Assembly (NCBI GenBank): GCA_009380075.1
Contig: WHSO01000033.1
Coordinates: 1-34,527, forward strand
Direction of reading: 5' to 3'
DNA: 34,527 nucleotides
DNA from: Alphaproteobacteria bacterium
Lineage (GTDB): Bacteria; Pseudomonadota; Alphaproteobacteria; SMXQ01
Part shown: positions 22,287 to 34,527 of the stretch, piece after piece
Layout of the letters: each line of letters begins with the position of its first letter
Position numbering within the stretch: position 1 is the first letter of the stretch
Made by a program: the position numbers and the translations under genes
Notes under the pieces: model-generated
The model's database searches: none
Seen by the model: only the letters and a program-made list of their open reading frames with translations
Told to the model about the DNA's origin: nothing

Positions 22287-24359
22287 TCAGCGACCTTGGA
22301 CGCGGGCCAGGAATTTTTCCCCCTCGATCGAATCGACAAACTGCTTCAAGGCGGCCACCACGGTTGCGTCGTAGCGTTCCGGATGATCGACAAGCAGTTG
22401 CATCGCTTCCTCGGGCGAAATCCCCTCGCGATACGAACGCGGCACGATACGGGCCGCGAAAACGTCCGCGACGCCGAGAATCCGCGCGGGCAGGCAGATA
22501 TCGTCGGCGATGCGGTTGGCCGGGTAGCCGCTTCCGTCGAGCCGTTCGTACATCTGGCCGATGGCATCGACCACAGGAAGCCCGAATTCCACGTCCTTCA
22601 GAATCCGGACCGCCTGGGTGATGTGCCCCTGCATGATCCTGACCTCGTCGGGGCTCAGGCGTTCCGCCTTTGCGACGATTTCCGCCGGGATGGAAAGCTT
22701 CCCGATCTGCGCCAGCATGGCAGCGATGTCGACGGTGATGAGGACGTCTTGCGGAACATGCAGCCCCGTGGCGATCCCGACGCTGACGTCCCGGACGTTC
22801 TCCGAATGGCCCCCGAGGTACGGATCGACCTGCTCGATCACGCGGACGAAGGCCCGGGTCATCGCCTGCAGGCCGCGCTGGCGCCGCTGTTCCGCCTCGC
22901 GGATTTCTGTCACGTCCCGCCCCGCGACGAGAATGCCCTCCACCTCCCCGCTTTCGCCCCGGTACGCCACCTTGGACATCTGGAAGTGGCGGACGCCGTC
23001 GGGCAGGTGCAGGACCTCCTCCACCACGACGGGCTTGTCGGAGGCAAGGGCGCGTTCGTCCGAGTGGCGCAGCCGTTCCGCGGTGCCGCGGCCGAAGACC
23101 TCGGCGTCGCTGAGGCCTTCGACGCCGTCGGACATACGGCCGATCATCCTGGCGAACGACGGATTGCCGTAGATGTAGGTACCACTTTTCCGCTTGAGGC
23201 CGATCATCTCGGTCAGCGAGTTCATGAGGCTGCCCAGGAACCGGCGCTGGGCTGCGATCCGGGAGCCCAGCTCCCGGTACTGGGTCGCAAGGGCCAGGTT
23301 GTGCTCGCTCGTCTGGTGCCGCCAGAACGCGACAAATCCGACAACGATGCAGAGCGTCAGGAGCACGCCGACGGCCGACACGCCCCAGGTGAAGGTACGC
23401 AGGGACGCCCTCGCCTCCACGGCGTTGGCTTCCTGCACCACCATCCACGGCACGCCGGGTACCCAGGTGCCATAGGAATAGACCGAGCCGCCGCCTATGG
23501 CGGCCCGCCGCGCAAAGGGGAACGACTGGCGGGGCGCCAGCGGCGCGCCCGTGACAGCTTCCAGGACGGGACGCCCGCCCGGAACGATCTCCTGCACCTC
23601 GGAGACGCCGACCTGAAACAGCCGTGTCGATTCGCCCTTGAGGGCGAGAGGTGAATCCTTGAGAACTTCGGCGAGGGTCGTGTGCACCGGTGTTGCCAGA
23701 ACGAACACACCAGACACGTTGCGCGGTGCCGCGGGATTCTCCTCTTGCGGTGGGGCGACCGGCAGGATCACGTCGAGGGACAGGCCATCGGCGTATTGCC
23801 GCACCGGCGTGACGGCGCGCGCCTTGGCCGCGATCGCCGCCGTGGCCGATTGCCGCTGACCCGGGCTCATGTTGGGCGCGCCGGCACTGGCGATAATCAC
23901 CCGGCCCTTGCCGTCGACGAGATAGACGCCGACCAGGCCCTCCTGTCGCGCGAATTGCGTAACCGCCTGCATCATATATGGAATTTGAGCCGCAAGGGCG
24001 GACTCCCTCGACCCGATATCGCCGTTCTGGCTCGCTTCGGACGCGAACAGGCGAAACACGTCGCTGCGGCTCAGCCGAAGCCCTGCGTTGCCCAGGGACT
24101 CCAGTCGGGCCGCCAGCACCTGGGCACGCGTTTCGGCGAGGATAGCAGTCCGTTGCGCAAGCTCACCGACAACGCGCGTTTCGCGCTGACTGACGATCCA
24201 GTACGCCACCCCGACGGCGACTACGATCAGGGCAGCGAAGATCAGTATTCCCCGGATCAGAAGATGACGATGGCCCGGCGGGTGGCGTTCCGCCGCGCCG
24301 GAGAACACGTGATCGAGATCGCCTGATTCGTAGTGGGTCGTAGCTGGTTGAGTCGTCAT
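22287..24359 (-). CDS. Transmembrane PAS/degenerate HD-GYP protein coupled to lapG (candidate LapD substitute)
   Basis: 690 residues from ATG 24359, overlapping the lapG-like stop as ATGA, so translationally coupled. Membrane helix 1 at about 33-56 (IRGILIFAALIVVAVGVAYW), a periplasmic Cache-like domain of ~260 residues (IPYMMQAVTQFARQEGLVGV, GSVYSYGTWVPGVPWMVVQE), helix 2 at about 324-346, a helical linker, a PAS domain (~375-490) and a C-terminal HD-GYP-type domain (~500-690). GYP is kept in ERLDGSGYP (606-613), as are H518, H579 and D632. However, the HD dyad reads AQ (A550-Q551 in AMLAQIGK), and the HH pair before ERLDGSGYP reads QM (602-603). Several metal ligands are therefore missing and phosphodiesterase activity is doubtful; a binding role is more likely. 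Its place beside lapG is where LapD, a degenerate GGDEF-EAL receptor, is often found. The LapD-like role is inference. Confidence 0.88.
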   Translation of the reverse strand: MTTQPATTHYESGDLDHVFSGAAERHPPGHRHLLIRGILIFAALIVVAVGVAYWIVSQRETRVVGELAQRTAILAETRAQVLAARLESLGNAGLRLSRSDVFRLFASEASQNGDIGSRESALAAQIPYMMQAVTQFARQEGLVGVYLVDGKGRVIIASAGAPNMSPGQRQSATAAIAAKARAVTPVRQYADGLSLDVILPVAPPQEENPAAPRNVSGVFVLATPVHTTLAEVLKDSPLALKGESTRLFQVGVSEVQEIVPGGRPVLEAVTGAPLAPRQSFPFARRAAIGGGSVYSYGTWVPGVPWMVVQEANAVEARASLRTFTWGVSAVGVLLTLCIVVGFVAFWRHQTSEHNLALATQYRELGSRIAAQRRFLGSLMNSLTEMIGLKRKSGTYIYGNPSFARMIGRMSDGVEGLSDAEVFGRGTAERLRHSDERALASDKPVVVEEVLHLPDGVRHFQMSKVAYRGESGEVEGILVAGRDVTEIREAEQRRQRGLQAMTRAFVRVIEQVDPYLGGHSENVRDVSVGIATGLHVPQDVLITVDIAAMLAQIGKLSIPAEIVAKAERLSPDEVRIMQGHITQAVRILKDVEFGLPVVDAIGQMYERLDGSGYPANRIADDICLPARILGVADVFAARIVPRSYREGISPEEAMQLLVDHPERYDATVVAALKQFVDSIEGEKFLARVQGR

Positions 24360-25081
24360 TGGACCTTTACCCCCGGAATGGGCCCGGCCGCCGGACGAAT
24401 CGGCATGACATGAGCCCATCTGGTTGTTTCGTTCACGGAATACTGAGGTACGTAAAACGTCACCTGCGTGTCGGGCAGGACCGCATCGAAGAGACTGTCC
24501 ATGATCAGGATCCTGTCATCGAGGTATACCGCAAGCACCGCATGGGGCACGGCGCGGAGTGTATCCTGCAGGACAACGATCCTGAGCTTTTCCGCCGGAA
24601 ATCCGAGCTCGCGGAGTGTGACGTATTTTATGATGGCGTAATCTTCGCAGTCCCCCGACTGGCTTATGAACTGCAGCGGCGACGCCCAGAAATCATTGAC
24701 TCCGTAGTTCTCGACATCCTCGCGATACACCCAGGAATTCAGAAAGCGGTTGATCTCGCGCAATTGCTCCACCGGTTTCAGCCCCTCGACCCGACGCTTC
24801 GACGCCCGCCAAGCGGCGGCGGCGGGGGACGGACACTTTCGCGCGTCCGCATCGCAGGCAGCGTAGATGACGTTCTCTTCCTTGATCTTGTCGAGGACCC
24901 GGGTCCACTGGGGCAGCGCCCGCAGGTTCCCGCCGATGAATTCCAGCGACCCGAAAATGCCGGCCGGACCGGTCCGCGCGGGACGCCCGACGTCGTCCGA
25001 CACGGCGGGAGGGGACAGCACAAGCGCCGCCAGGGCGGCAAGGACCGAAAGGAAAAATACGCGGGTGCTTCGGGCGAACAT
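24356..25081 (-). CDS. lapG: Periplasmic transglutaminase-like cysteine protease, LapG family
   Basis: 241 residues with an N-terminal signal peptide (VFFLSVLAALAALVLSPPAVS). This is a bacterial transglutaminase-like cysteine proteinase. The triad is Cys 145 in SQSGDCEDYAIIKY, His 180 in AVPHAVLAVYLDDR and Asp 195 in ILIMDSLF. Acidic residues flanking the cysteine (D144, E146) match the calcium-binding residues known in LapG. RFLNSWVYREDVENYGVNDF is also typical of the family. LapG cuts the N-terminal retention module of giant adhesins after a di-alanine site, releasing them from the cell surface; a membrane receptor holds LapG in check. The gene follows the membrane-fusion gene after nine bases and overlaps the PAS/HD-GYP gene by ATGA. 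A candidate substrate with a PAAG site is encoded at 29713-32280. Confidence 0.92.
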   Translation of the reverse strand: MFARSTRVFFLSVLAALAALVLSPPAVSDDVGRPARTGPAGIFGSLEFIGGNLRALPQWTRVLDKIKEENVIYAACDADARKCPSPAAAAWRASKRRVEGLKPVEQLREINRFLNSWVYREDVENYGVNDFWASPLQFISQSGDCEDYAIIKYVTLRELGFPAEKLRIVVLQDTLRAVPHAVLAVYLDDRILIMDSLFDAVLPDTQVTFYVPQYSVNETTRWAHVMPIRPAAGPIPGVKVQ

Positions 25082-25090
25082 CGGTTTGCG

Positions 25091-26494
25091 TTACCGCTCG
25101 TGCAACGCCCGCTCCCGCGCCTTCATCAGAGGCTTGAGGAGGTAGTCCAGCACCGACTTTTCGCCGGTGAGGATATCGACGGTCGCCACCATGCCCGGAA
25201 TGATCGGCAGCGGGCCTTCCTTGGCGCCCAGGTAGTTCTTGTCGGTCCGAACGATGATCTTGTAGTAGCTCTCGGACCGGCCCGAGGCATCCGTCTCGGT
25301 GATCGTATCCGCACTGATTCGTTCGACCTTCGCCTTCAGCCCCCCGTAGACGGAAAAATCGTAGGCCGAAATCTTGACGATGGCCTCCTGGTCCGGACGG
25401 ATGAAGGCGATGTCCCGTGGGCGGACTTTGGCCTCGACCAGGAGCGTATCGTCGATCGGCACGATCTCGACCAGGTCCATTCCCGGCCGGACCACGCCGC
25501 CGACCGTGTTTACCTTCATCTGCTTGACAATTCCGTTCACCGGCGACCGGACCTCGGTGCGTTGCACCCGGTCCTTGGCGGCGAAGATAGCTTCGCCCAC
25601 GGCCGTGAGCTCGTTCTGTTTCTCGGTCAGCTCCTTCTGCGCGGCCGCCTTGAACCCCAGGTAGTGTTCCTCGATCCGCCGGTTGGCCTCGCGGATTGCC
25701 GACTCGGCCCGCGGCACCGAAAGCCGGATGCTGTCGAGTTCCCGTGTGCTGTCGTTCAGGCTTCCCTGCAGCTTCAGGTATTCCATCCGGGGCACGACGC
25801 CCTGGGCGACCAGAGGGTCGGTGATCTTGACCTGCTCGCTCAGCAGTTCGACGCCCTTCGCGAGGCTGCGTTCGCGGCTTTTCAGGTCCGCCAGTTCCTG
25901 CTTTCGCTGATCCACCTGCTGCTCGATGATGGCGATCTGCGCCTGAAGCTCGTTCTGGCGCGCCATGTAGAGGTGCCGCTCCCGTTCCGCGATCTGACGC
26001 CGTTCGGCCAGCAGCTCGGGAGGGAAGGTGAGCGGCCGCTGGTACGCCTCGGCCTGCAGGCGCGCCACTGCCGCGGCCAGGCCATCGTATTTCGCCCGCA
26101 ATTCGCCGAGGCTCGAAACGAAGGTGCTGTTATCGATCTGGATCAGCGGTTGTCCCGCCTTGACGATCTCGCCTTCGCGCACCTCGATCTTCCTGACGAT
26201 GCCGCCTTCCAGATTCTGGACGATCTGGATCTGTTGCGACGGAATGACGCGGCCCTCGCCGGTCGTGACCTCGTCGAGGACCGCCCAATTCGCCCACAGG
26301 ACGGCCACGACCAGGAACACGAGAACCCCCAATATCAACGCCTGACCGAACAGCGCCGGCCGCGCGATCCCGGCTCCAAACCGGACCGGCGCGTAATCCG
26401 CGTCCGGGTGTGGAAGAAGCTTCCGGAGCATTTCCGCGAAGCGCCTGCCCGACGCCGGCATGGGATTGCGACTGGAGAAAATATCCTGTGCCAT
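25091..26494 (-). CDS. lapC: Type I secretion periplasmic adaptor (HlyD/LapC family)
   Basis: 467 residues. One N-terminal membrane helix (ALILGVLVFLVVAVLWANWA, 52-71) follows a cytosolic tail. Then come the first half of a lipoyl-like domain (IVQNLEGGIVRKIEVREGEI, ending GQPLIQID, 91-121), a long coiled coil of about 170 residues rich in Glu, Gln and Arg, the second lipoyl half (RSPVNGIVKQMKVNTVGG) and beta-barrel/membrane-proximal parts. It joins the inner-membrane ABC exporter to an outer-membrane TolC-like channel, which is not encoded in this window. The gene lies six bases after the ABC exporter gene and nine bases before lapG, so one operon is clear. Sequence and context fit the LapC-type group dedicated to RTX adhesins. 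Confidence 0.93.
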   Translation of the reverse strand: MAQDIFSSRNPMPASGRRFAEMLRKLLPHPDADYAPVRFGAGIARPALFGQALILGVLVFLVVAVLWANWAVLDEVTTGEGRVIPSQQIQIVQNLEGGIVRKIEVREGEIVKAGQPLIQIDNSTFVSSLGELRAKYDGLAAAVARLQAEAYQRPLTFPPELLAERRQIAERERHLYMARQNELQAQIAIIEQQVDQRKQELADLKSRERSLAKGVELLSEQVKITDPLVAQGVVPRMEYLKLQGSLNDSTRELDSIRLSVPRAESAIREANRRIEEHYLGFKAAAQKELTEKQNELTAVGEAIFAAKDRVQRTEVRSPVNGIVKQMKVNTVGGVVRPGMDLVEIVPIDDTLLVEAKVRPRDIAFIRPDQEAIVKISAYDFSVYGGLKAKVERISADTITETDASGRSESYYKIIVRTDKNYLGAKEGPLPIIPGMVATVDILTGEKSVLDYLLKPLMKARERALHER

Positions 26495-26500
26495 GACGCG

Positions 26501-28693
26501 TTACGCCGTCTGAGCCTTGATCTTGCCGGAATTCAGGGCCTCTATGATCTGGTCCCGCGGGCCGTCGGCGATTACCTTGCCCTGATCGAGGATGATGATC
26601 CGGCTGGCCAGCGGCAGCAGCGAGGCGCGGTGGGTGATCAGGAACAGCGTCCGGTTCTTCAGCGTGCGCGCGACCTGCGACATGAAGATCTTCTCGGTTC
26701 CGGTATCGATGCCGCTGGTCGGCTCGTCGAGAATCAGGATGGGAGGGTCCGTTACAAGGGCGCGTGCCAGGGCTACCGCCTGGCGCTGGCCGCCGGACAG
26801 CCCGTCCCCGCGTTCGCCGACAATCAGGTCGTAGCCCCGCGGGTGACGCCGGACGAAGTCGTCCACGCCCGCCATGTGCGCCGCCCGCAATATCGCCTCA
26901 TCATCGACATAGGGTGCGCCGAGGGCGATGTTGTCGCGGATCGTGCCGTGGAACAGGAAACTGTCCTGCAGCAGCGTGCCGATGCTGCGCCTGAGGTCCG
27001 CCGGGTCGATCTGGCGAACGTCGGTGCCGTCCATGGTTATCGAGCCTGAAGTCGGGTGATAAAGCCCGAGGATGAGCTTGGCCACCGTGCTCTTGCCGGA
27101 ACCGACCCGGCCGATGAGGGCAACGCGCTCGCCCGCGGCGACGGAAAAGCTGACGCCCCGGAGCGCCGGCAGCTCGGCTCCCGGATAGCTGAACGTGACG
27201 TCCTGGAAACGGACCGCCCCCCGGAAGGACGCCCGGTGCAGGAATCGCTTGGCCGCGGGACGTTCGACCGGCAGCGACATGATGTGGTCGAGGGCGCGCA
27301 ATGCCGACATGGACTGGTTCATCCGCGCCAGCAGGTTCGCGACCTGGCCGAGCGGCGCAAGCGCACGGCCGGAGAGGATCATCGCGGCAATGAGCGCACC
27401 GCTGGTGATGCTGCCGTCCTGGATCAGGTAAGCGCCGTAGATAACCACGGCGATGGTCGAAAACTGCTGCAACGACATCGACAGGGTGACGATGATCTGG
27501 GACAGGAACCGTACCCTGAGCGCGGACTCCGTCGCCTTGGCGACGAATTGCTCCCACTTGTTCTGCATCCGCCCCTGGGCGTTCAGGCTCTTGATGGTTT
27601 CGAGCCCGCCGATGGTCTCGACCAGGATGCCGTGCTTCTGGGCGGCCTCACGCTGGCTGAGTTCGACCGCCGCCTGTAGCGGCCGCTGCAGCAGCACGCC
27701 CGCCACCAGCAGCACAGGCACGATCACCGCCGGAACGATGGCGAGTTCTCCGGCAATCAGCCAGATCACCAGTATGAACAGGACGATAAAGGGGACATCG
27801 GCAAAGGCGGTGATGCTCGCCGAGGTCAGGAACTCCCGCACGATTTCGAAATCGCGCAGAATATTTGCAAAAGCGCCGGAGGAGCCCGGCCGGGAAGCCA
27901 TCTGGAGGTTCTGGACGTGTTCGAAAACCTTCGCCGACAGCAGCGTGTCGGCGCTCTTGCCGGTCGAATCGACGAAATAGCCGCGCAGCGTCCGCATGAC
28001 AAAATCGAAGCCGATCACGATCGCCACGCCGATGGCCAGAACCCACAGCGTCTCGATCGCGTTGTTGGGCACGACCCGGTCGAAGACCTGGCGCATGAAT
28101 AGGGGCGTCGCGAGCGCGAAGCAATTGACCAGCAGCGACGCGACGATTACCTGTCCGTAGATCGGCCAGAACTGCGCCAGCGTCCCCCAGAACCACGACT
28201 TTTGCAGTGCCGGGCCGTGTTCGGCGCCGACGCGCCCATCGTCGCGATATTCCGGCCGGACGAAGATGACATGACCTTCGTAGAGGGCCTCGAGCTCCCT
28301 GCGCGCGATCCGCAACTGCCCGCCCCCGCTTTCGGGCGAGAGGATCTCGCAGGTGTCGGCATCAACGTGGCGCAGCAGGACGCACGCGCCCCCGCCCACG
28401 AGAAGGAGGACGACCGGGAGGGTGAAGGCGGGAATGCCGGAGAGGGATCGCTTGGCGATGCGGCCGGTGAGGCTCGCGCGCTCGGCTGCGCGGAAGAACA
28501 ATTCGGGCGTGATCCGCCCGCCTTCGAGCGGCAGCCCGGCGACCAGTGCGTCGGGAGACACCGGACGCTCGAAGACGCGGGTCAGGGCGGCGAGGCAGGC
28601 AAGCAGCGGGTCGTCGACGTCCCGCTTGAGCGCTGCCTGGGACACGGACCAGTCCTCTGCGCGGTCGCTATGCTTGACTTGGTCGAGCGCCAT
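26501..28693 (-). CDS. lapB: Type I secretion ABC exporter with C39-like domain (LapB family)
   Basis: 730 residues from ATG 28693 (GGGAAGG upstream). The N-terminal C39-like domain (about 25-145; DDPLLACLAALTRVFERPVS) is of the kind that lacks peptidase activity in RTX exporters and binds the substrate instead. The six-helix ABC membrane domain spans about 165-470. The ATPase has Walker A GRVGSGKST (528-536), signature LSGGQ (632-636), Walker B ILILDEP (652-658) and H-loop His 688. The full length matches LapB/HlyB-type exporters. It powers export of unfolded RTX adhesins through the adaptor at 25091-26494 and a TolC-type channel. It is probably the first gene of the secretion/release operon, 226 bases downstream of the SH3 gene. 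Confidence 0.93.
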   Translation of the reverse strand: MALDQVKHSDRAEDWSVSQAALKRDVDDPLLACLAALTRVFERPVSPDALVAGLPLEGGRITPELFFRAAERASLTGRIAKRSLSGIPAFTLPVVLLLVGGGACVLLRHVDADTCEILSPESGGGQLRIARRELEALYEGHVIFVRPEYRDDGRVGAEHGPALQKSWFWGTLAQFWPIYGQVIVASLLVNCFALATPLFMRQVFDRVVPNNAIETLWVLAIGVAIVIGFDFVMRTLRGYFVDSTGKSADTLLSAKVFEHVQNLQMASRPGSSGAFANILRDFEIVREFLTSASITAFADVPFIVLFILVIWLIAGELAIVPAVIVPVLLVAGVLLQRPLQAAVELSQREAAQKHGILVETIGGLETIKSLNAQGRMQNKWEQFVAKATESALRVRFLSQIIVTLSMSLQQFSTIAVVIYGAYLIQDGSITSGALIAAMILSGRALAPLGQVANLLARMNQSMSALRALDHIMSLPVERPAAKRFLHRASFRGAVRFQDVTFSYPGAELPALRGVSFSVAAGERVALIGRVGSGKSTVAKLILGLYHPTSGSITMDGTDVRQIDPADLRRSIGTLLQDSFLFHGTIRDNIALGAPYVDDEAILRAAHMAGVDDFVRRHPRGYDLIVGERGDGLSGGQRQAVALARALVTDPPILILDEPTSGIDTGTEKIFMSQVARTLKNRTLFLITHRASLLPLASRIIILDQGKVIADGPRDQIIEALNSGKIKAQTA

Positions 28694-28918
28694 TGATGCC
28701 TTCCCCGGGGCAATCTCATTGGAAAGCGAGACATTAACGGAAAATTCCCTAACAATTGATAAAAACGTTAACCATATCGTCCGGTCCTTGCCGCCCGGGG
28801 ACGGCCCCATGGGACACTCCATGGACATCAGTGAGCGTCGCGGATTCCGGGCATCTGCGCGGGGGCCGCGGGCGATGGTGCCGTGGTATGGAAGGCGCTA
28901 GTTGCGGGGATCCCTGCC
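28694..28918 (-). promoter_or_regulatory. Probable promoter region of the lapBCG operon
   Basis: This 225-base gap separates the SH3 gene from lapB. The part nearest lapB (about 28715-28790) is clearly AT-rich for this genome, with runs such as GTTAACGTTTTTATC and AATTGTTAGGG on the minus strand and short TTAAC/GTTAA repeats. I cannot name exact -35 and -10 boxes with confidence. The position argues for an independent promoter for the secretion operon. Confidence 0.4.
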
Positions 28919-29545
28919 CTATACCGGTGCCGGCTTGGGCACTATGCGGATCACGGGGGAAGGCTTCCGGTCCCGGAAATGGTGGCGCGGCACCTTCCGG
29001 ACCTCCGAGTGAGGGCGATCACGGTGGCGACGGCTTTCGTGCCGCCGCGGCAGGCCGCAATCGACGCAATAGAGATACACCGGCTGCCTCCGCCGGGAGA
29101 CGTAGGCCCCTTCTCCGTCCGCCGACTGCGTCCGTGTCGCCGGTTCATCCGGGGACGCTCCGTCCGGTGCTTCCGAACGCGCCCCCGGGCCTCCTCCGTC
29201 CTCCCTGTCGTCGGTTTCGGGCTTGAGGTACCGTGCCGCCACCCAGCCTTCCTTGCCGATTGCCCCGAACAGCATGCCGCGCACCCAGCCGTCGCGGCGC
29301 TCGAATTCCATGATGCGGTCGTTCTTGTCCAGGCGCTCGATGACCTTGCTCTTCGGGCCGGGCGCGGCGTACAGGGCAACGTCTACGTCGGTGATGACCA
29401 GTATCTCGCCGGGCGTGGCATGCGCCTCGCCGGGCGCCATCAGAAATGCCCCAAGGGCGGTCAGGACCAATGCCAATCTTCCCCGGCGTGCGGGCGGGCG
29501 GCATCCTCGCGAGAAAGTGCCAAGGTTGACAGGACGTTCCATCAT
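28919..29545 (-). CDS. Secreted SH3-domain protein in the Lap-type locus
   Basis: 208 residues from ATG 29545 (GGAGGCGG upstream). It has a basic N-terminus, a signal peptide (LALVLTALGAFLMAPGEAHA), then a bacterial SH3-like domain (about 45-115): VDVALYAAPGPKSKVIERLD, DRIMEFERRDGWVRGMLF and GKEGWVAARYLKPE. An acidic, Gly/Pro-rich linker follows, then a CxxC (LYCVDCGLPRR) and a His/Arg-rich tail ending VPKPAPV. SH3b domains of this type often bind peptidoglycan or serve as periplasmic scaffolds. The position between the adhesin and exporter genes suggests a role in anchoring or assembling the adhesin at the envelope, which is inference. It is not a known core Lap component. Confidence 0.75.
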   Translation of the reverse strand: MMERPVNLGTFSRGCRPPARRGRLALVLTALGAFLMAPGEAHATPGEILVITDVDVALYAAPGPKSKVIERLDKNDRIMEFERRDGWVRGMLFGAIGKEGWVAARYLKPETDDREDGGGPGARSEAPDGASPDEPATRTQSADGEGAYVSRRRQPVYLYCVDCGLPRRHESRRHRDRPHSEVRKVPRHHFRDRKPSPVIRIVPKPAPV

Positions 29546-29663
29546 GACCGCCTCCATCGTATCGGAATGTGTGGCGCGACGCGGGCCTATGGCCGGCGAC
29601 AGCAGGGAACGGTTCCGATGATAGTCCGGTATCGACGGCCTTGGAAGGCCGTCCGCAAGCGAA

Positions 29664-29712: not shown

Positions 29713-32280
29713 CTAGACCAACTGGAAATCGTTGGACGCGAACGTCGCGTCCGTGATCACACCGATGTTGGTGATGTCGGCCACCAGCACGGCACCACCG
29801 GCTACAGACGGGTTCGGATCTTGCCAGACCTGCGCCTTGTCGCCGACGTCGAAGACGAACAGGGCGGCGTTGCTGATGTTCGCATAGCCGTCGATCGTGG
29901 CCTGAACATCCGCCTCGAGAATTTCATCGAACTGAACGATGACCTCGTTCCCCGCCGCGTTCATCCCCGGACCAGCGGACGACGCACCCTCCGCATAGGT
30001 TACCGTCGTGTCGTTGTTGCCGATCCCGATCGTCCCAACGTCGAATGCGAGAAGGTCGTCACCGCCGCCCGATGTGAAGGTATTGTAATCAGTGATGGTG
30101 TCGCCGAACTCGGCGGTGGAATTCCAGCGAAAGACGTCGTCACCCGCCCCGCTGGTCAGGATGTCATTGCCCGGGCCGCCAACCAGTATGTCATTGCCAC
30201 CATTGCCGAAAATGATGTCATCGCCGCCGCCGCCATTCAGCACGTGACTGCCGCCGTTGTCGACGATGATCTCGGCACCGTCACCCCCATCGATGGCGCC
30301 GGACGCGACCGCCCTCACCGACACCACCGCGTCATCCGATGCATCGTCATTGCCGGACGCGTAGGTGAAGGTCGCGAGGTCGCCGGGATCGAACGGCCAA
30401 TCCGTGTTGATGACGACATCCGAACCGGAAACGGAGACGTTGTCGAAGTTATGTGTGTCAAAGGTCAGGATGCCGTTGACCGTCAACGGACCATCGCCGG
30501 TGTCGTTGGCCAGCAACGCCCATTGCGGCACCGTAAAAGTGACGTCGTTGTTGATGGCGGTAAGGATCGTATCCGCGTTCGCCACAACGTCCGGGGTCCC
30601 ACCTGGGACATCCGCGACATTGATCGTGAGCGTGGCCGAAGCCTGATCGCCGTTGCCGTCCTCGATCGTATAGGCAAATTCCTCGGACTGGTCGGAGTCC
30701 ACTTCCGGCGCCGTGTAGGTATAGGCCCCGGTATTGAAGTTGAATTCGAACTCACCTCCCAGGGCCGTCACGACCGTGAGGACAACGCCGCTATTCGAAA
30801 GCACGGTCCCGCCGACCGGCGAATCCGCCGTATAGGTGATCCCGTCATGGACGAAGGCGACCACGGGGTTGGGGGCACGGTAGCCGTCGGTACCCGGAGA
30901 ATCCGGCGGGGAATCGTTCCCGGCCACGCCGTCGTCGCTGATGCCGGTAAGTACGTTGCCGGTTACGGTGGACCCGACGAGCGAGGATTCGAAGGCGTCC
31001 TCGAGGGCTGCCAGAAGATCGTCGAACGAATCGATCAGCACGACGTTACCATCGGGCGACGCGACGGCGGCCAGAGCGTCCTCGGCAACGGGATCGCCAT
31101 TGAGAGCACCGCCGATACCGATCGCATAGGCATCGGCGCCGACGCTGTTCAGCGCGTCGTTCCAGGCCGCTTCATCGTTCGGCCCGAGCCCGGCACCGCC
31201 AGCCAGACCGGCACCGGAATCCCCGACACCGACCGTGGGCGCGCCGTCGCTCACGAAATAGACGGTGTTGACCAGCTCCGGCGACGCCCCGTCCCACAGC
31301 GCGATATCCGCCGCCCCGAGGAGGACCGCCGCGTCGTAGTTGGTGCCGCCCCCCTGCCCCGGCCGGTCGTTCTGGATGCTGGTGAGGACGGCATTGGCCT
31401 GATCGATCGATCCGAGCGAAAGGTACGTGACCGCGCTGCCGCCGAAGCTGACCAGCGTGACCTCGACGCCGTCGGCACCATCCTTGGCAACGGCCGCGTA
31501 GGTGTCGAGCAGTTGCGTGATGGCGTTGATACCGGTCGCAAGATTCTCGTCGCTCACGCTCTGGGAGACGTCGATGATGAACATGAGCTGGAAATTGGCC
31601 GCGACCGTTCCGGATTCCGGCGTGGACGCGAGATCCGGATTCGCCACCGGCACCGACGAAACGATGTGATCGCCGAGGCCCGCGGATTCGTCATCGGACG
31701 CCAGGAAGCCCCCTTCGGGTTCCGGCGGGCTGCGCAGGAAGTCCTCATTCGACTGCAGGGAGCCCGGCGCCAGGCCGTCGCCAATGTCACCGGGCGAGAA
31801 TGTTGCAAAGGATGCGCCGCCGCCATGGGCCACCCCCGTATCGGGACCCGCCGCCGGCGCGATGTCGAGATTCGCCCCCGATGTCGCCGCCAGGAGTTGG
31901 CCCGGGTCGATGGTGCCGATGCCCGCCACTTCGACCACCGGCGGATTGGCGCTTTCCGCCGCCGCCGTATAGCCGGCCAGGAATATCACCCCGCCGTTCG
32001 CCAGCGTGATCAGGAGCCCGCCCTCGAACTGCTGGATCTGGGCCGTCGCCAAATCGACGTCCTGGAATACCAGGCGCGCGCCCGGCCCCACCGCCACCTC
32101 GACCCGCGCGCCGGTGGGCGGCGCCGTGATCGTCACCGCCGCCAGCGCGGGACCTTGGGTCCCGGTGGCTTGAGCCAGCCGGATCACCTCATCGGCGATG
32201 GCGGTTGCCTGCGCCTCGCCCCGCGCGCCGTCTGGCGTGCCTGAGGCCTTGTCGTGTGAGGTATTGGTGTCAATGGCCAT
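29713..32280 (-). CDS. Type I-secreted LapA-like adhesin with VWA and RTX repeats
   Basis: 855 residues from ATG 32280 (MAIDTNTSHD), preceded by GGGAG seven bases upstream; an ATG at 32301 would add seven. The N-terminal 150 residues look like a LapA retention module: strands of the type GPGARLVFQDVDLATAQIQQ and LLITLANGGVIFLAGY, then a candidate LapG cut site PAAG (142-145, in DIAPAAGPDTG). Next is a von Willebrand A domain (~230-430) with MIDAS DVSQS (237-241), GGGTNYDAA and VYFVSDGAP. A cadherin/VCBS-like beta domain follows (~470-560), then RTX nonapeptides (664-717: GGGGDDIIFGNGGNDIL and onward) that bind calcium, and a C-terminal secretion signal region ending FQLV. It should be exported by the neighbouring LapB/LapC-like machine and held at the outer membrane until LapG cuts it. 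Confidence 0.88.
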   Translation of the reverse strand: MAIDTNTSHDKASGTPDGARGEAQATAIADEVIRLAQATGTQGPALAAVTITAPPTGARVEVAVGPGARLVFQDVDLATAQIQQFEGGLLITLANGGVIFLAGYTAAAESANPPVVEVAGIGTIDPGQLLAATSGANLDIAPAAGPDTGVAHGGGASFATFSPGDIGDGLAPGSLQSNEDFLRSPPEPEGGFLASDDESAGLGDHIVSSVPVANPDLASTPESGTVAANFQLMFIIDVSQSVSDENLATGINAITQLLDTYAAVAKDGADGVEVTLVSFGGSAVTYLSLGSIDQANAVLTSIQNDRPGQGGGTNYDAAVLLGAADIALWDGASPELVNTVYFVSDGAPTVGVGDSGAGLAGGAGLGPNDEAAWNDALNSVGADAYAIGIGGALNGDPVAEDALAAVASPDGNVVLIDSFDDLLAALEDAFESSLVGSTVTGNVLTGISDDGVAGNDSPPDSPGTDGYRAPNPVVAFVHDGITYTADSPVGGTVLSNSGVVLTVVTALGGEFEFNFNTGAYTYTAPEVDSDQSEEFAYTIEDGNGDQASATLTINVADVPGGTPDVVANADTILTAINNDVTFTVPQWALLANDTGDGPLTVNGILTFDTHNFDNVSVSGSDVVINTDWPFDPGDLATFTYASGNDDASDDAVVSVRAVASGAIDGGDGAEIIVDNGGSHVLNGGGGDDIIFGNGGNDILVGGPGNDILTSGAGDDVFRWNSTAEFGDTITDYNTFTSGGGDDLLAFDVGTIGIGNNDTTVTYAEGASSAGPGMNAAGNEVIVQFDEILEADVQATIDGYANISNAALFVFDVGDKAQVWQDPNPSVAGGAVLVADITNIGVITDATFASNDFQLV

Positions 32281-32827
32281 GGATCGCTCCCGTTCCGTCA
32301 TCCACCGGGCACGCCGATCGCGTCCGATGGGAACTTTGGAACCTCATGGTACTAACACTAAATTAATCATAGAGGACGAACAAGGCGGCGGCGGGTGGGG
32401 ACTCACACCACGATGTGCGGCCGGGTACGGGCTTTTGAATCCGCCGCAGGATTCCACACGGGAGCAAACTGAAATCCGTGACTACCCTTAGCTCGGAAAA
32501 TCCAGGGCTGGCTTGCGGGGCAGGTGCGGGGAGTAACTTCCGAGTAGTTTTTTCCCAGCACCTCCCTCCATAGGGGGCGGAAGGCGTGGCAAGGGCATGG
32601 TAGCCACGCCGCGGTACGTGGGCGTGGCGGGATACTCAATTTAAAAGAGTAGGTTGGAAACCTGACAGGTCGGCAGATGTTGGCAAGCCCACAGCACTGG
32701 CGGGCGGCCATATTTTGATTTCATGCATGCTGATTACGCAAAATTCCGCGCACTATCGCACCAGATAGCGCGCGGTTGACCTAAGAGCGGCCTGCTTCTG
32801 ACCACGAAGATGGGCGGAAAGGGCATA
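32281..32827. other. Intergenic region between the two adhesin genes
   Basis: About 550 bases without a convincing gene. Near 32340-32375 an AT-rich patch (minus strand TATGATTAATTTAGTG) is the best candidate promoter for the VWA/RTX adhesin. It contains TATGAT, a good -10 match, but no clear -35. The middle (32400-32700) has small frames without start signals. A terminator hairpin for the upstream large adhesin is at 32748-32773. Confidence 0.45.
32748..32773 (-). terminator. Likely intrinsic terminator of the large adhesin gene
   Basis: GCGCACTATC (32748-32757) and GATAGCGCGC (32764-32773) form a 10-base stem with one mismatch and a six-base loop. On the minus strand it is followed by GGAATTTTGCG, a short U-run. 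It lies 54 bases past the adhesin stop. Confidence 0.6.
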
Positions 32828-34527
32828 CTAAACGATTGTGGCGTTCACATTGACAATTTCGGCGTCGACCTGGACTGTTACCATGGTCGGGCCAACAGTG
32901 CTGGTGTAAACGTGGAACCCGCTCGCCGCCACACCGGCATCAGTCCATGTACCTTGCAGATTGACTGCATCGTTACCATCTCCGAGCACCGTCAGTACGT
33001 TATCAGTTGAATGTTCGATCACGTCCTCCGCCGCCAGTGTCAGGACGTTGCTCCCCGAAGTCTCGACCACCAACGTTGAAGGATTATCCGGACCTGACGA
33101 GGCTGTGCCCGTGAGATCGATCACTTCAATACTGGCAATCCCCAAAGAAGCCGTATTCGTAAGGGCCGAAAGATCGAGGGAGACACCATTTCCATCGATA
33201 CGCAAGGTATCGGTGCCAACCCCGCCATCGTAGGTGTCATCGAATGTCAAGTCGGCTCTGTCCCAAACGAGGATATCATTGCCATCGTTGCCATTTAGGA
33301 TGTTATCGCCAGCCCCCCCGTTCAAGATGCTCATACCGGAATCACCTTCAAGGATATCGTTGCCGGCCGCTCCAAATACATAATTAGTGCTTGATGACGG
33401 ATCGCTCAGCGGATTGTCGTTCCCACTTGTGCCATCGATGGAGTCGGTAAAGCCCTGAACCAGTGCCCCACCCGTATGGGTCAATGGATCAGCTGGCACG
33501 ATCACAGCGGAGATTGCTTTGGTATCACCGCCTGGCGACGCCGTCGGATCCCCAAGCTGATGGGTACCGGAACTCTGGATCACCACATCTTCAAGAGTAA
33601 CGCTGGTAACGATGATTTTTTCGTCGCTGTTCCCTTGGTCGACCCACTCCAGGGTAACGGCGTACTGTTTCGTATTGTCAATGGTGAAACCAGTAAGTTC
33701 CTGGATGACAATGGACGAATCTTTTTGACCACCCGTGGGGACAGTGATGAGAGCTTGAAAGCTGTTAGTTGGATTGGCCACCTCCGTGAAGGTAAGCAAC
33801 AATTTTGCGCCAGCTGTGCTATTCTTATTAGTTGTGATCAGGCCGTTAAGTTCTTGGAGAAGGACCACATCCGTGTCCTCGATCGTCGCCACCGCCGTCG
33901 GTGCCGTAATCGACGGCGTTGGACCCGCGACGATGGACGCGCTCGCCAGGTTCACCACAATGGTCTCCCCCGGATCCAGCTCGCTGTCGTCCGTCGCCGT
34001 GGCCACAAACGACAGCGCCGTTGGGCCACCGCCGAAGAAAGTCAGCGTGTTGGTCCCGGCGTCATAAGTCGGGTTGTTCGGGTCCGCCGCCAGCGCCGCA
34101 ATCGCATTGGCGATTACCGTCTCAATCGCCGGCGAGTAGTCCGTGCCGTCCCCCGCTGTGCCGGGGAAGTTCAAGACCACCGAGGCCGAATTGCCCACCG
34201 CCAGCGTCCCGGTCATCTCGATCGTGAAAGTCGCCGCGTTGTCGGCAAGATTCTCCTCGCTGATCGATACCGCCGCTCCCGCAGGTTCCCCTCCCTCATC
34301 ATCAACCGTCACCGCGAAAGACACTGACGAATCAATATCGGTGATGGTGACGCTTTCGGCGTCGGCCGCGCTGGCGGTGCCGTTGACCGCCGTGGCGTTG
34401 CTCAGCGTCACGGTCAGGGTCTCGGGCGAGTCGGTGAGATCGTCATCGGCTGCGGTCACGGTGAAGGACAGGTCGGTGCCGGCGAAGGCGTCGGTGAAGG
34501 TCAGGGTGGTGCCGTCGAAGCTGACCC
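32828..34527 (-). CDS. Large repeat adhesin, C-terminal part (CalX-beta and RTX repeats; 5' end outside window)
   Basis: 566 codons are visible; the frame stays open to the right edge, so the gene starts beyond it. The first part repeats a CalX-beta pattern (VSFDGTTLTFTDAFAG, DDDLTDSPETLTVTLSNATA, then AESVTITDID; later DDSELDPGETIVVNLASASI and TAVATIEDTD). A different, lower-GC segment follows (about 33450-33870), then RTX-type repeats (about 33255-33445: FGAAGNDILEGDSG, NGGAGDNILNGNDGNDILVW) and a C-terminal beta-rich secretion region ending VDAEIVNVNATIV. This is a typical end of a giant type I-secreted biofilm adhesin. The N-terminal retention module and total length cannot be judged here. 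It is probably exported by the neighbouring LapB/LapC-like system. Confidence 0.88.
   Translation of the reverse strand, partial: VSFDGTTLTFTDAFAGTDLSFTVTAADDDLTDSPETLTVTLSNATAVNGTASAADAESVTITDIDSSVSFAVTVDDEGGEPAGAAVSISEENLADNAATFTIEMTGTLAVGNSASVVLNFPGTAGDGTDYSPAIETVIANAIAALAADPNNPTYDAGTNTLTFFGGGPTALSFVATATDDSELDPGETIVVNLASASIVAGPTPSITAPTAVATIEDTDVVLLQELNGLITTNKNSTAGAKLLLTFTEVANPTNSFQALITVPTGGQKDSSIVIQELTGFTIDNTKQYAVTLEWVDQGNSDEKIIVTSVTLEDVVIQSSGTHQLGDPTASPGGDTKAISAVIVPADPLTHTGGALVQGFTDSIDGTSGNDNPLSDPSSSTNYVFGAAGNDILEGDSGMSILNGGAGDNILNGNDGNDILVWDRADLTFDDTYDGGVGTDTLRIDGNGVSLDLSALTNTASLGIASIEVIDLTGTASSGPDNPSTLVVETSGSNVLTLAAEDVIEHSTDNVLTVLGDGNDAVNLQGTWTDAGVAASGFHVYTSTVGPTMVTVQVDAEIVNVNATIV

Follow-up and report, generated by a model that had tools for sequence, protein, structure and literature searches.

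Which protein holds LapG in check when the gene that overlaps lapG does not encode LapD? The question is raised by the stretch of DNA analysed here (the window, 34,527 nucleotides), an entire contig of a 3.54 Mb genome whose assembly consists of 162 contigs and is 97 percent complete. Our analysis indicates that the gene at 22287..24359 (minus strand) very probably encodes a DvhD-type cyclic di-GMP receptor, which would restrain LapG through its dCache domain at high cyclic di-GMP. According to Font et al. 2026 (PMC13090378), DvhD of Desulfovibrio vulgaris binds cyclic di-GMP at about 99 nM and leaves it unhydrolysed. It controls the LapG-type protease DvhG and thereby decides, in sulfate-reducing bacteria, whether cells remain attached to a surface (PMC13090378).

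All the genes of the locus with coordinates in dotted form, and the features within them, are on the minus strand. The lapG gene (24356..25081) encodes a Peptidase_C93/BTLCP protein (PF06035, 69 bits in the Pfam search) with an N-terminal hydrophobic segment and an intact GDCED motif. The Cys-His-Asp triad expected of a BTLCP protease (C145, H180 and D195) is invariant in our alignment, its sequence matches the structures 4u65 and 4fgo, and the gene is single-copy in the genome. The stop of lapG and the start of the receptor gene share an ATGA overlap (24356..24359), which had been pointed out in the first-pass annotation and is confirmed by direct reading; the receptor gene therefore adjoins that of a LapG-type protease, as in DvhD-type systems. 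Upstream of lapG, domain matches identify two components of a type 1 secretion system, an HlyD-type membrane fusion protein (25091..26494) and an ABC transporter with a weak C39-like N-terminal match (26501..28828). An SH3_3-domain small protein with a signal-like N-terminus is encoded at 28919-29557, between the ABC transporter and an 862-residue RTX protein. The latter (29713..32301), with an N-terminal retention-like region, VWA and Ig-like domains and RTX repeats, is the candidate adhesin substrate. Its residues 149-152 (31846..31857), which follow a DP motif, read PAAG and form a candidate LapG site according to the consensus taken from PMC13090378. By itself this motif is weak evidence for cleavage, because one tetrapeptide of this kind could well turn up by chance in a protein of 862 residues. 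The contig ends inside the gene of a second RTX protein, of which the C-terminal portion is present (32828..34527); the operon's largest adhesin may be incomplete here.

The receptor is a protein of 690 amino acids. Hydropathy places a first transmembrane helix at residues 38-56 (24192..24248), which is a helix in the structure model also, and a second at residues 327-345 (23325..23381). Between the two is a periplasmic dCache domain (residues 65-319, 23403..24167), assigned from sequence and fold matches, the Pfam dCache_1 match over residues 65-224 being sub-threshold. Next come a PAS domain (residues 380-487, 22899..23222; Pfam PAS_4, 70 bits) and, at residues 503-667 (22359..22853; Pfam HD_5, 135 bits), an HD-GYP domain that is degenerate. 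Hydropathy, Pfam and fold matches thus bear out the earlier description of two membrane helices, a periplasmic domain, PAS and HD-GYP, and the dCache, PAS and HD-GYP domains are combined in one inner-membrane protein, as expected of the DvhD type. Crystal structures of DvhD are the best sequence matches and are colinear with the receptor (E-values of 2.6e-53 for PAS/HD-GYP, 1e-36 for HD-GYP and 5.6e-18 for dCache). The AlphaFold2 model, built on a 35-row alignment, has a mean pLDDT of 86.5, and DvhD chains occupy ranks 1-6 of the Foldseek search with this model. Superposition of the periplasmic domain on DvhD 9rc2 gives a Z score of 25.8 with 2.4 Å over 249 residues, compared with about 17 for other dCache domains. 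We regard the receptor, with near certainty, as a homologue of DvhD from an alphaproteobacterium.

When 84,980 species genomes were scanned, 80 receptor loci were recovered, whose hosts include Rhodospirillales, Kiloniellales, Sneathiella, Geminicoccaceae and Desulfovibrio. A lapG gene is located within 1.5 kb of the receptor gene in 58 of them. In our survey of 289 genomes of the class, 52 receptors were found in 47 genomes, 38 of them with lapG within 3 kb; 41 genomes carry both genes, 39 lapG without the receptor and 6 the receptor without lapG, an association with an odds ratio of 36 (p 3e-21, uncorrected for kinship). Unlinked receptors with room on their contigs were rescanned for a lapG-like motif and none was found. 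The linkage is thus conserved among relatives, where its absence had been named beforehand as a ground for giving up the idea. The search for lapG-adjacent HD-GYP genes and the alignment of their HD and HH positions, which had been suggested along with it, reveal that the HD dyad is missing in all 105 homologues examined. Within the GTDB family of this organism, lapG is present in 11 of 11 genomes, a receptor of type I (defined below) being co-directional with it in five and one of type II divergent from it in four. Two members of this family carry a divergent lapG-like gene with no adjoining receptor of the DvhD-type family (L016, 8644-9324, genome G003; L027, 10386-11168, genome G002). One lapG with a type I receptor (L057, 5242-7998) comes from a genome titled Anaerolineae (Chloroflexota); its layout is the same as that of the alphaproteobacterial locus L056 and its scores are nearly equal, and the genome is probably misbinned or mislabelled.

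The receptors fall into two sister types, and the gene in the window belongs to type I. In the receptor tree, type I (31 rows, SH-aLRT 92) stands apart from type II (56 rows, SH-aLRT 100), although a single origin of both rests on just four outgroup rows. Type I genes are co-directional with lapG (28 of the linked loci, none divergent), keep GYP and often have a type 1 secretion system near, whereas type II genes are divergent from it (29, with 1 co-directional), have lost more ligands and usually lack the GYP tyrosine. A gene for HlyD flanks 28 of the 41 type I-only loci, as against 6 of the 56 type II loci. Among 59 type II sequences, serine replaces H250 (numbering of PmGH, see below) in 50 and asparagine replaces D305 in 55; the GYP tyrosine is kept in 6, and the equivalent of DvhD R650 in 58. 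A model of the type II receptor of Dongia mobilis (locus L111; pLDDT 85) has DvhD as its best match overall, with a Z score of 20.9 for the dCache domain, compared with 17.6 for the next-best dCache structure. The lapG tree divides along exactly the same line as the receptor types (support 99), and the receptor and lapG distances are correlated within each type (0.79 and 0.66, with 0 of 2000 permutations as high). Such agreement is as expected of partners inherited together.

In three related genomes (G177, G051 and G273) both pairs, type I and type II, are present about 7 kb apart. The type I lapG of these genomes (L127, 15661-16362; L128, 14134-14826; L129, 14298-14978) has GDSED in place of GDCED, so that the catalytic cysteine is a serine. 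Genes for a type I receptor and for secretion adjoin it, and the type II pair is intact. From their sequence, these lapG genes might encode either a pseudo-protease that has been conserved or an enzyme that works with serine. A quick tree nests DvhD among the alphaproteobacterial type I receptors. A direction of transfer between Alphaproteobacteria and Desulfovibrio was considered from this nesting and dropped, as the AU test does not reject (p 0.53) a tree in which the alphaproteobacterial type I rows are forced together.

The presence of a dCache domain raises the possibility that the receptor works mainly from the outside in, with a periplasmic small molecule bound by dCache setting LapG activity and cyclic di-GMP being secondary or absent. 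Domains of this kind are usually ligand sensors, some nucleotide contacts differ from those of DvhD, and in type II the dCache domain and the lapG linkage stay even though the GYP tyrosine is mostly lost. However, the dCache domain of DvhD crystallized with no ligand seen (PMC13090378), and the nucleotide pocket of type I receptors is well preserved. Mutants of DvhD in R650, Y652, R653 and P567 have been reported to bind cyclic di-GMP poorly (PMC13090378). With DvhD numbering taken from the 9rc0 sequence and verified at 20 residues, these correspond to R641, Y643, R644 and P558 of our receptor, which thus keeps the canonical-site residues with a strong mutant effect and the bridging proline of a DvhD-type protein; Y523, L577 and Y621 of DvhD are also kept (Y514, L568 and Y612). 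GYP and the equivalents of R650, Y652 and R653 are found in 45-46 of 46 type I homologues (GYP, R650 and R653 in all 46), which suggests that the nucleotide pocket is still under selection. We therefore consider a mainly outside-in receptor unlikely.

Other contacts of DvhD have changed, namely K582, M646 and E668 (V573, R637 and H659 in the receptor) and, in the bridging site, K520 and R569 (V511 and E560). We do not regard these positions as defining, because they vary among type I homologues including the Desulfovibrio relatives. As E668 confers base specificity in DvhD, its replacement by H659, at a position variable in relatives, could mean that the receptor is meant for another nucleotide such as 3'3'-cGAMP, which DvhD also binds at about 501 nM (PMC13090378). 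Such a reading is quite unlikely, given that DvhD prefers cyclic di-GMP and that the genome contains four GGDEF domains.

Analysis of the metal site points to a domain that no longer works as an enzyme. The HD dyad is replaced by A550-Q551 (22707..22712), just as had been noted before. The HH pair, previously given as QM (602-603), was off by one and is M603-Y604 (22548..22553), because E605 is the glutamate of HHExxDGxGYP; aligning the receptor with DvhD, which has its pair at M612-N613, leads to the same assignment. The stretch ERLDGSGYP (E605-P613) was correctly called intact, including the GYP motif G611-Y612-P613 (22521..22529). This pattern is no accident, as GYP is present and the HD dyad broken in each of 46 type I homologues. 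In the active phosphodiesterase PmGH the metal ligands are E185, H189, H221, D222, H250, H276, H277 and D305, and alanine at H221, D222, H276 or H277 abolishes activity (PMC4159591). In our alignment the equivalents of H221, D222, H276, H277 and D308 are lost, while H189, H250 and D305 are kept as H518, H579 and D632, and K225 as K554, so the receptor does not have the complete ligand set of an HD-GYP phosphodiesterase. A working phosphodiesterase that lowers cyclic di-GMP, an outcome that would have told against a receptor from the start, is highly improbable despite these kept residues and the GYP motif, since four ligands that are each essential in PmGH are replaced, the HD dyad is intact in 0 of 46 type I homologues and DvhD with the same losses is inactive. 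This degenerate domain is the only HD-GYP detected in the genome, and an active HD-GYP phosphodiesterase was not found there.

The genome encodes four GGDEF, two EAL and one HD-GYP domain. One EAL protein is a REC-GGDEF-EAL protein without transmembrane helices, and the other is a two-helix protein with a divergent EAL domain, in which neither GGDEF nor HAMP was matched; neither protein therefore resembles LapD. The second (L029, 1653-2879, contig C146 of the same genome) is a protein of 408 residues with two N-terminal transmembrane helices and ECFSRIR replacing EALLR, a layout that we take to resemble that of TipF of Caulobacter. No LapD_MoxY_N domain (PF16448) was found in the genome, in a search in which positive controls were silent too; the profile repeated over the class matched in 5 of 289 genomes and in 0 of the 47 receptor genomes. 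A LapD encoded elsewhere that controls LapG, leaving the HD-GYP gene with another role, is just as improbable as a working phosphodiesterase on these domain searches, even though a gene might be missing from an assembly that is 97 percent complete, and no bona fide LapD of the kind that would have spoken against the receptor came to light.

Our preferred reading is hence a DvhD-type receptor, for which we infer nucleotide binding, the direction of signalling and control of LapG by analogy with DvhD. When cyclic di-GMP is abundant, the receptor's degenerate HD-GYP domain would bind the nucleotide without cutting it, and the change on binding would be relayed by the PAS stalk and the membrane-spanning helices to dCache on the periplasmic side. 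This last domain would restrain LapG and leave the adhesin anchored. A drop in cyclic di-GMP would free LapG, which would then cleave the adhesin after its retention module, with PAAG 149-152 as the probable site, and the cell would detach.

The idea of an enzyme-derived receptor in the LapD position, parallel to LapD, is supported, as the protein is deficient in metal ligands and unrelated to LapD. The proposed adhesin-release switch holds insofar as the homologue DvhD controls a LapG-type protease, and by analogy the receptor may do so in this organism; it is not a new kind of switch, because DvhD has already been described (PMC13090378). This kind of receptor was published in 2024-2026, including a 2024 reconstitution of DvhD/DvhG in P. 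fluorescens as cited in PMC13090378, and the first-pass annotation was right in outline. What the present analysis adds is the conserved linkage, the loss of the HD dyad in every homologue examined, the two sister types and the matching split of the lapG tree. In the part of the literature accessible to us, the distribution figure of PMC13090378 aside, we found no description of the wide alphaproteobacterial spread, of the exact co-segregation of receptor and lapG types or of type II receptors lacking the GYP tyrosine. The use of a dead HD-GYP enzyme in the place of LapD extends beyond sulfate reducers; paired with LapG, such a receptor is common in Rhodospirillales and related Alphaproteobacteria, in about one in six of the class genomes sampled. 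The two types, paired in three genomes, offer a test of receptor-protease recognition. It is conceivable, though we put it forward only tentatively, that the receptors derived from HD-GYP and linked to lapG make up a large family, found mainly in Alphaproteobacteria, with DvhD as one branch. Type II, in which the entire HD/HH/H250/D305 metal site and usually the GYP tyrosine are gone, might sense nucleotide through an altered pocket or signal from dCache instead. If true, the switch arose outside the sulfate reducers.

Among known systems, DvhD-DvhG of D. vulgaris Hildenborough (DVU1020-DVU1019; 9rc0, 9rbz, 9rc2) is the closest, with the same order of dCache, PAS and degenerate HD-GYP, loss of HD and HH with GYP kept, an adjoining protease gene, and an operon with a secretion system and a VWA/RTX-type adhesin. 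However, the receptor in the window has AQ for HD and MY for HH where DvhD has SQ and methionine-asparagine (PMC13090378), several secondary contacts differ, LapG is 241 amino acids long without the long linker reported for DvhG, and the host is alphaproteobacterial. Type II receptors of Rhodospirillales and relatives, such as that of Dongia mobilis, share dCache, PAS, an HD-GYP-derived domain and the lapG neighbour, but are divergent from lapG, have lost the H250 and D305 equivalents and rarely have secretion genes near. PmGH of Persephonella marina (4mcw) shares the HD-GYP fold and the GYP loop, but is catalytic, with all metal ligands, and carries GAF instead of PAS and dCache. LapD-LapG of Pseudomonas fluorescens likewise combines a receptor of the inner membrane, derived from an enzyme, with a BTLCP protease and a LapA-like adhesin, and the logic proposed is the same, whereas LapD is built of a LapD/MoxY periplasmic domain and HAMP-GGDEF-EAL, which our receptor does not have, and the two receptors are not homologous.
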